Source of the DNA: Microbacterium sp. Se63.02b | GTDB lineage: Bacteria; Actinomycetota; Actinomycetes; Actinomycetales; Microbacteriaceae | Direction: 5' to 3' | Length of the DNA: 64,000 bases | Assembly: GCF_014171575.1 (NCBI RefSeq) | Contig: NZ_CP050453.1 | Location: forward strand, 1,798,001 to 1,862,000 | Shown: piece by piece, positions 28,088 to 29,077 of the stretch | How the letters are laid out: each line of letters begins with the position of its first letter | Numbering within the stretch: the first letter of the stretch is position 1 | Made by a program: the position numbers and the translations under genes | The notes under the pieces: model-generated | Database searches by the model: none | Told to the model about the DNA's origin: nothing | The model's input: only the letters and a program-made list of their open reading frames with translations

Positions 28088-28486
28088 TCAGGCCAGGCCC
28101 TCCAGAAGGTCCGTGACGCGGCGCTTGATGTCGTCGCGGATGGGGCGCACGGCGCTGAGGTCCAGGCCCGCCGGGTCGTCCAGCTCCCAGTCCTCGTAAC
28201 GCGTGCCGGGGAAGATCGGGCAGGCGTCGCCGCACCCCATCGTGATGACGACGTCGGAGACCCGCACGTCGTCGGTCGTGAGGATCTGCGGGGTGTTCTC
28301 GGTGATGTCGATGCCCTCCTCGGCCATTGCCGCTATCGCGACCGGGTTGATCCGGTCGGCGGGCTCACTGCCGGCAGAGAGGACGCGCACGCGCTCTCCT
28401 GCCAGCTCCCGGAGGTACGCCGCGGCCATCTGCGAACGGCCGGCGTTGTGGACGCAGACGAACAGCACGGTGGGTGTCTCGCGCAT
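28088..28486 (-). CDS. arsC: Arsenate reductase, low-molecular-weight phosphatase type
   Basis: The 132-residue enzyme has the catalytic loop CVHNAGRS (Cys11-x5-Arg) and a later Cys pair in VITMGCGDACPIFPG (Cys85 and Cys89), followed by YEDWELDDPAG. This sequence type belongs to the arsenate reductases that in Actinobacteria use mycothiol/mycoredoxin or thioredoxin to reduce arsenate to arsenite. AAGGAG six bases before the ATG at 28486 sets the start. It is the second gene after a tiny Cys-rich peptide in a unit divergent from arsR. No arsenite pump is in this window. Confidence 0.92.
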   Translation of the reverse strand: MRETPTVLFVCVHNAGRSQMAAAYLRELAGERVRVLSAGSEPADRINPVAIAAMAEEGIDITENTPQILTTDDVRVSDVVITMGCGDACPIFPGTRYEDWELDDPAGLDLSAVRPIRDDIKRRVTDLLEGLA

Positions 28487-28516
28487 CTCGGTCTCCTTCT
28501 GATCGAGGCGTGTGCA

Positions 28517-28543
28517 GTCGTCCCTGGTGCACTCAGGGACGAC
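28517..28543 (-). promoter_or_regulatory. Hairpin between the Cys-rich peptide gene and arsC
   Basis: GTCGTCCCTG and CAGGGACGAC form a perfect 10-bp stem around a 7-base loop, nine bases beyond the peptide stop and 31 before arsC. It could stabilise the short upstream mRNA or partly terminate, giving more peptide than ArsC; this role is inference. Confidence 0.5.
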
Positions 28544-28551
28544 CGGTGATG

Positions 28552-28635
28552 TCAGCAGCAGCCCGGCGGGCAGCACTCCTGGTCGAGTTCGGGCGGGCAG
28601 CCCAGCTCGATGCAGAGGGTGTTGGTATCCATCAT
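28552..28635 (-). CDS. 27-residue Cys-rich peptide in the arsenic operon
   Basis: A very strong Shine-Dalgarno (AAAGGAGGTGAGC) leads directly into two adjacent ATGs. The product has six Cys in 27 residues, at 8, 13, 21, 22, 26 and 27, with the C-terminal run ECCPPGCC after MMDTNTLCIELGCPPEL. It is the first gene after the ArsR operator and precedes arsC by 65 bases. Two adjacent CC pairs and spaced single Cys would suit thiolate binding of arsenite or another soft metal, so a metallothionein-like buffer or a chaperone is a reasonable guess. I do not recognise a named family. Confidence 0.65.
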   Translation of the reverse strand: MMDTNTLCIELGCPPELDQECCPPGCC

Positions 28636-28648
28636 GCTCACCTCCTTT

Positions 28649-28728
28649 CATCGATGTCTATCGATGCATGAGCAAGTGTGCGATGAAACATAGACGACTG
28701 TCAATATTCATGAGAGTCTATGTTTCAT
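28649..28728. promoter_or_regulatory. ArsR operator region with two inverted repeats
   Basis: Repeat one is CATCGAT-GTCT-ATCGATG at 28649-28666, just upstream of the peptide gene. Repeat two is ATGAAACATAGAC at 28683-28695 with its exact inverse GTCTATGTTTCAT at 28716-28728; the right arm covers the arsR ATG at 28727. Divergent control by ArsR is inferred from position and the ArsR family. Confidence 0.7.
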
Positions 28729-29077
28729 GCCCGTCGGTGAACTGCTCCCTGTCCGCGACCTTCAAGCGTGCTGCGCTCCGTTGACGCGGGAACCGATAGC
28801 GCAGGACACCGCGGAGTCCCTGGCGCGCACGCTGCGAGCTCTGGCGGACCCCGCGAGACTGCGGCTGATCTCGATGGTCGCGGCGCACGAGGGCGGTGAG
28901 GCGTGCGTCTGCGACCTCACGGAACCCCTGGGGCTTTCGCAGCCCACGGTGTCGCATCACCTCCGCGTCCTCGCCGAGGCGGGATTCCTCACGCGGTCGA
29001 AGCGTGGCACCTGGGCTTACTACCGGCTCGTGCCCGGTTCTCTCGACGGCATCGCCGGACTCCTGACCACGGTGTAG
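28727..29077 (+). CDS. arsR: ArsR-family metalloregulator
   Basis: The 116-residue winged-helix repressor reads TLRALADPARLRLISMVAAH, then EACVCDLTEPLGLSQPTVSH with the recognition helix, then HLRVLAEAGFLTRSKRGTWA. Candidate As(III) ligands are Cys15-Cys16 in LQACCAPL and Cys60/Cys62 in ACVCDL. The Cys15/Cys16 pair plus a Cys in the 'CVC' helix matches the layout known for Corynebacterium ArsR rather than the E. coli type. There is no Shine-Dalgarno; the start codon lies inside the operator repeat. Confidence 0.92.
   Translation: MPVGELLPVRDLQACCAPLTREPIAQDTAESLARTLRALADPARLRLISMVAAHEGGEACVCDLTEPLGLSQPTVSHHLRVLAEAGFLTRSKRGTWAYYRLVPGSLDGIAGLLTTV

Follow-up and report, generated by a model that had tools for sequence, protein, structure and literature searches.

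A predicted very small cysteine-rich peptide gene next to arsR in actinobacterial arsenic resistance loci

Organization of the locus

The window, i.e. the whole 64-kb stretch of Microbacterium sp. Se63.02b DNA analyzed here (the 4.08 Mb genome of this organism is a single contig), contains a divergent arsR-arsC pair with a tiny open reading frame between the two genes. The features of this region are as follows.

28727..29077, plus strand: arsR, ArsR/SmtB repressor carrying a CC pair at its N-terminus; oriented divergently to the peptide gene (Pfam/NCBIfam, solved relative)
28690..28705, no strand assigned: ArsR-type inverted repeat 1, ATTGACAGTCGTCTAT; putative ArsR binding site
28650..28665, no strand assigned: ArsR-type inverted repeat 2, ATCGATAGACATCGAT, immediately upstream of the Shine-Dalgarno sequence; putative ArsR binding site
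28638..28647, minus strand: Shine-Dalgarno site, AAGGAGGTGA
28635..28552, minus strand: gene for the tiny Cys-rich peptide; 27 codons plus stop, or 26 when counted from the second ATG; product MMDTNTLCIELGCPPELDQECCPPGCC
28515..28545, minus strand: RNA hairpin following the stop codon (stem of 12 bp, loop of 7 nt), in which relatives show compensatory changes; likely a partial terminator or mRNA stabilizer
28088..28486, minus strand: arsC, low-molecular-weight-phosphatase-type arsenate reductase, 132 aa (Pfam/NCBIfam, solved relative)

The preliminary description of this DNA had reported a tiny Cys-rich ORF at 28552-28635, with six Cys and two CC pairs, placed between the ArsR operator and arsC and preceded by one of the strongest ribosome sites of the window. 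All these points were confirmed, with the ORF on the minus strand; the plus-strand reading of the same positions is unrelated to the Cys peptide. The frame opens with two adjacent ATGs, the second of which gives an MD start as in many relatives, and the product of 26-27 residues is small and has a Cys content above 15%. Its Shine-Dalgarno sequence occurs as a single exact copy in the window, where 0.03 copies were expected. Searches of Pfam and NCBIfam with 12 members of the peptide family gave no family for the Cys peptide (one member touched a keratin model at E 0.12) and no match to metallothionein models, and Rfam had no family for the peptide region.

The closest solved relative of the window ArsR is an arsenic-responsive ArsR (6j0e). 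That of ArsC is 3t38, a mycothiol-type enzyme of Corynebacterium. The previously noted lack of an arsenite pump was confirmed for Acr3 and, by tblastn, for a MIP channel across the window. As an argument for a thiol partner this lack is weak, because two Acr3 genes scoring above the curated cut-off lie elsewhere in the genome, at 337 kb and 722 kb. Two more ars clusters were observed in the same genome, at 324-342 kb and 712-724 kb (L030, L031), with arsR, several arsC and Acr3; no tiny Cys peptide passing our filter was found in either.

Distribution and conservation of the peptide family

Two sets of loci were fetched and scanned for short frames that are dense in Cys and preceded by a ribosome site: ArsC loci (the best 80, from named genomes, of 560 encoding a relative, plus 30 of the genus, own locus included) and ArsR loci (30 of the class, 60 more, and 30 plus 39 of Nocardioidaceae). 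In addition, 299 genomes of the family to which Microbacterium belongs were searched with a profile built from four sequences. It matched 68 of them at E up to 1, and in 10 (own genome included) the match was backed by a frame and a ribosome site; among the remaining matches, the loci that had been fetched contained no further Cys ORF preceded by a ribosome site. In the genus, 19 of 198 genomes matched at E up to 1 in a search that would miss very short members; the own genome alone was convincing, and the next best match had an E value of 0.099. A combined profile matched 3 of 208 genomes of the order and 9 of 197 of the class, own genome included in both, the others being weak and partial. 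A group C profile matched 7 of 296 class genomes at E up to 0.1, all weakly or partially, and yielded no member. The loci of the weak order and class matches contained no Cys ORF passing the filter. A plasmid search gave nothing usable, and its low-complexity filter may hide matches. Five other Cys-rich matches (L013, L033, L038, L075 and L156) lay outside the ArsR slot or had no ribosome site and were rejected as chance. Searches of open-licence PMC papers returned no title or abstract opening that dealt with such a peptide.

The relatives, of 7-26 residues, occupy the same spot in other actinobacteria and fall into four groups:

Group A: the window, Curtobacterium pusillum (L096), L261, L263, L265 and L266; pattern C-x4-C-PP...CC
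Group B: Subtercola MAG (L044), L262 and L275
Group C: Naasia (L080, identical with L264), L267 and L268; type MxxCCDxSCCTxxCxDGCxCC
Group D (Nocardioidaceae): L099, MDDCCTGTGCC
Group D (Nocardioidaceae): L093 and L258, MAENECCDCCGCC
Group D (Nocardioidaceae): L255, MSENECCDCCGCC
Group D (Nocardioidaceae): L246, identical with L306, MDTCGCGCCGC
Group D (Nocardioidaceae): L245, MCDCGCC, with 4 Cys among 7 residues

Conservation of the frame and of the Cys positions in related ars loci, on which the preliminary description had let its reading depend, was indeed observed, and the Shine-Dalgarno site, the operator-like repeats and the position recur as well. In group A the pattern C-x4-C...CC-x3-CC is kept, except that L263 does not have the last CC pair; all 34 of the 34 aligned Cys codons in the six loci are retained, several neighboring positions vary, and the non-Cys residues E, G and PP are also conserved across several genera. 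An alignment of groups A-C contains three invariant Cys and two more that are nearly invariant, and Cys density across the whole family ranges from 19% to 57%. Pooled pN/pS values were 0.52, 0.38 and 0.39 for groups A, B and C, respectively, from pairs that are not independent of each other. The excess of changes at third codon positions was not significant in any group (p 0.11-0.33).

Position next to arsR and operator-like repeats

We counted Cys-dense tiny ORFs on the outward and the inward strand in 210 distinct ArsR loci (45% or more identity to the window ArsR, 200 nt or more of upstream DNA). With the first filter, such an ORF was present on the outward strand in 7 of the 210 loci and on the inward strand in none. 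The filter was then relaxed to admit 5-7 residues, after the 7-residue frame of L245 had come to light, and gave 8 of 210 outward and again 0 of 210 inward. All eight outward ORFs begin 75-95 nt from arsR. Over all DNA scanned, the relaxed filter had 17 matches per 1,961,456 strand-bases, true ones and duplicates included, so the expectation for the 124,470 outward bases is ~1.1 matches at most. The presence of the peptide ORF beside arsR is not due to chance. The rate among the 210 loci is not a prevalence, as the sample was not random: Nocardioidaceae were added because L099 has the peptide.

Two 16-bp inverted repeats lie in the 100 nt upstream of the window peptide, where mononucleotide shuffles contained 0.000 on average. 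Two such repeats were present in all nine group A/B loci, the window included, and in two of the four group D loci tested, a set without L245 in which L093 and L255 did not match; none of the three group C loci had operator-type repeats upstream. Inverted repeat 1 of the window includes a TTGACA hexamer, a possible -35 element.

The downstream hairpin and the genes behind the peptide

In all nine group A/B loci, an RNA hairpin lies 3' of the peptide stop codon. In the window this region has a folding z of -3.4. Across group A the 9-bp core is paired in 54 of 54 cells, and four of the nine pairs have changed on both sides. The covariation score of group A was reached by 1 of 500 shuffles; the count of pair types was equalled by 320 of 500 and is hence not above chance. 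For both figures, the core and the segments had been chosen by eye, as hairpins. No U-tract terminator was detected behind the peptide gene in a terminator scan; therefore, the hairpin would at best be an atypical terminator.

The hairpin loop AGUGCAC (window 28527-28533) is identical in four loci, namely the window, L096, L261 and L265. The loop, which includes the self-complementary GUGCAC, is a possible loop-loop contact or protein site. The sequence CTGAGTGCACCAG was found in 8 of 347 loci, comprising own copies (L001, L009, L141), L096, L261 and L265, and wider copies (L300, L302).

Where the peptide is present (eight loci), the divergent arsR and arsC are 207-335 nt apart, versus 63-139 nt in 10 of 14 loci without it. 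Of these ten short gaps, three do not reach nt 80, and in the other seven no fold past that point is stronger than -3.7 kcal/mol. Folds as strong as -22.1 do occur in peptide-free gaps at offsets 0-49, where the operators lie, and the four longer peptide-free gaps (L052, L095, L115 and L217) fold past nt 80 with values of -18.1 to -26.6. One of them, L095, has a 271-nt gap with a leader fold of -18.1 kcal/mol and no Cys peptide. From this comparison, the hairpin mostly accompanies the peptide. A hairpin within an ars operon is also known from ars1 of Bacillus sp. CDB3, where, according to the relevant passage of PMC4562236, an intercistronic hairpin lowers expression of the downstream genes and its removal raised the long transcript. 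That hairpin lies between arsC and arsD, whereas the one described here lies between the peptide gene and arsC, and its effect here is a prediction.

This arrangement raises the possibility of a leader peptide: a cysteine-responsive upstream ORF in which the speed of the ribosome at the CC codons would set whether the hairpin forms and blocks arsC. The Cys codons end at the stop and the hairpin begins ~2-13 nt later in nine of nine group A/B loci, with compensatory changes in the stem, and leaderless mycobacterial ORFs with contiguous Cys codons are described as attenuators in the part of PMC9031893 that deals with them, which attributes these polycysteine leaders to Canestrari et al. 2020. 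In both cases a short first ORF has adjacent Cys codons, with the downstream hairpin added here in groups A/B. The mycobacterial leaders of that account are leaderless, whereas the window peptide has a Shine-Dalgarno site, which argues against a leaderless start, and it also differs from them in its conserved non-Cys residues. The peptide gene precedes arsC in groups A/B, but not in group D or in two of the three group C loci. The conserved E, G and PP of group A speak against a leader peptide as well.

In group D the peptide gene is on the strand opposite an arsR-MIP-arsC operon, with arsC located behind arsR and MIP, and is followed on its own strand by a glpD-like gene (L306) or by one encoding a desaturase-rubredoxin fusion (L099, L308). 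In group C the gene before the peptide encodes a CmtR-type regulator that has Cys at its terminus. The regulator of L268 is a CmtR by score (173.5 bits, cut-off 150); that of L297 has CmtR as best family with 133.7, under the cut-off. The surroundings of L267 and L268 gave no relative of the window-type ArsC or ArsR by tblastn, leaving two of three group C loci with no arsC nearby; metal genes near the group C loci were spotted by eye. Since arsC does not follow the peptide in these relatives, control of arsC by a leader cannot account for the whole family, and we consider the leader reading unlikely. It is possible that such a role is additionally true in groups A/B. For the same reason, the earlier proposal that the peptide is a partner of ArsC is too narrow: it fits groups A/B, where the peptide gene directly precedes arsC, but not group D or two of the three group C loci.

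A slot shared with ArsI/CadI

Of the 210 loci, 81 encode ArsI/CadI divergently to arsR, with the start at 59-181 nt and in 45 of the 81 within 75-95 nt. This is the slot of the peptide, although the position is typical of ArsI/CadI (NCBIfam NF041414) and not defining. None of the seven peptide loci counted with the first filter had ArsI/CadI in the slot; such a result is expected ~3% of the time under independence, and the exclusion is thus only suggestive. Synteny is the stronger fact. Between arsR and glpD, two loci have ArsI/CadI (L248, L253) and four have only a tiny Cys frame (L093, L255, L306, L245), so that both occupy this site alternatively. Five of these six loci belong to one Nocardioidaceae genus (g107), in which the peptide has 7-13 residues. 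The glpD type of L306 is based on Pfam DAO and DAO_C above cut-off, with the best NCBIfam model just below; in the other loci glpD was assigned by eye. At the DNA level, L093 from its last Cys codons onward aligns with L248 from the end of ArsI/CadI onward, and over 123 nt the promoter region of L099 shares 81% identity with the one of L232, a locus with ArsI/CadI. A search at E up to 1e-5, run with no positive control, did not find ArsI/CadI in the own genome or in eight other peptide genomes. An ArsI/CadI-like gene between arsR and arsC was observed in L217.

Many ArsI/CadI proteins end in CC...CC, like the peptide. Among 5544 frames of 110 codons or more (spurious frames included), 43 ended in CC and had four or more Cys among their final 30 residues. 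Sorted by eye, they comprised 26 ArsI/CadI-like, 6 ArsO-like, 3 ArsD and 2 ArsR-type frames, 1 transporter-like frame, 1 running through the L263 peptide and 4 that seemed spurious. NCBIfam assigned L241 to ArsI/CadI (195 bits, cut-off 116) and L053 to ArsD (122, cut-off 90); two ArsO-like frames tested were far under the family cut-off. Judged by eye, the final 30 residues of a typical ArsI/CadI include 4-5 Cys. The solved structures related to the L241 ArsI/CadI comprise 123-126 residues and match residues 1-122 of its 153, and therefore leave out its Cys tail. C-terminal CC...CC tails were seen in ArsI/CadI, ArsD and ArsO-like proteins of actinobacterial ars loci, including L034, L045, L048, L053, L058, L069, L089, L094, L148, L155, L217 and L241. 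The peptide itself matches no VOC/glyoxalase model, the domain that ArsI/CadI has, and is far too short for that fold; hence it is neither an enzyme nor a member of ArsI/CadI.

The Nocardioidaceae peptide looks like an ArsI/CadI reduced to its tail, and the peptide is perhaps a detached ArsI/CadI tail, from which it may descend. A functionless relic, i.e. the start and Cys tail left over from an ArsI/CadI or similar gene, would account for the common slot, for the L099/L232 and L093/L248 alignments and for L261, where arsR and most of arsC are missing. Yet the start codon, frame and ribosome site recur in several lineages, Cys density is 19-57% compared to 4-5 Cys per 30 residues in the tails, pN/pS is below 1, and non-Cys residues are common to group A members of several genera. 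This conservation weakens the relic reading, which we regard as still less probable than the leader. Two loci could represent decay. In L261 (1498-1578) and L300, the peptide, the operator-like repeats and the hairpin are intact, arsR was not found and arsC is represented by its 3' part; in L298 (4300-4554), a CmtR-type regulator before a group C peptide has no first part and the peptide frame is intact.

A putative soft-metal-trapping peptide

The explanation that we favor, with a probability of roughly 0.6, is that the ORF is a genuine gene of very small size and encodes a thiol peptide, a micro-metallothionein, that traps soft metals and is induced through ArsR (in group C, linked to a CmtR-type gene). 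The frame, its conservation and position, the ribosome site, the operator-like repeats, the covarying hairpin and the alternative occupation of the slot can all be read from the DNA itself. In the mechanism proposed, arsenite would dislodge ArsR, the product of the divergent gene, from a tandem pair of operators, and a cytoplasmic peptide would then be made in quantity from the near-perfect ribosome site. Its CC-x3-CC motif and two single Cys would hold As(III) until export or repair, and the vicinal Cys pairs would probably hold other soft metals as well. The hairpin would stop or trim most transcripts, such that the peptide would be produced in excess and arsC by read-through. Several points count against this explanation: the distribution of the family is patchy, peptides of 7-13 residues may be unstable, the third-position test was not significant, L093 and L255 depart from the operator pattern, L261 and L298 could represent decay, the pair types of the hairpin do not exceed those of shuffles, and strong folds also occur in gaps that have no peptide.

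Bacterial metallothioneins include SmtA/BmtA and mycobacterial MymT and have roughly 50 residues or more. Like metallothioneins and phytochelatins, the peptide is very small and very rich in Cys, and the gene beside it encodes an ArsR/SmtB-type sensor of soft metals; the trapping of As(III)/Cd(II) by thiolates is likely to be shared. It differs from bacterial metallothioneins in its length of 7-27 residues, from phytochelatins, which are not made by ribosomes, in being a predicted ribosomal product, and from both in being the first gene behind an ArsR-type operator. ArsD (PF06953) also has vicinal Cys pairs in ars loci, and three ArsD-type proteins end in CC...CC; the PF06953 domain was not found in the peptide.

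The least probable alternative, a metallochaperone or redox helper for ArsC/mycothiol that hands over As(III) or reduces ArsC rather than storing metal, agrees with the gene order peptide-arsC in groups A/B and with the handover by vicinal Cys of ArsD mentioned in the relevant part of PMC4562236, but arsC is on the other strand in group D and not near in two of three group C loci, and length and spacing vary greatly for a single docking surface.

Beyond the trapping peptide as such, a broader reading can be put forward tentatively. Actinobacterial ars/cmt loci may use a modular CC...CC thiol tail, either fused to ArsI/CadI, ArsD or ArsO-like proteins or free as a ribosomal micro-metallothionein (7-27 residues) that would be the gene-encoded equivalent of phytochelatins, and the free tail may have replaced ArsI/CadI in some lineages. 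If true, ribosome-made Cys-rich peptides of a few residues under an arsenic sensor would be some of the smallest metal-binding gene products, and a role would be suggested for the Cys tails of ArsI/CadI; natural pairs of loci, with enzyme plus tail versus tail alone, make this question directly testable. Genes of 7-27 codons are under the usual limits of gene calling, and such resistance determinants would therefore be missed in most genomes.

One further occurrence of the neighboring genes was observed. A contig labelled Stenotrophomonas maltophilia P13 (L049) has an arsC with 72% identity to that of the window, with arsR divergent from it, a case of either contamination or transfer.
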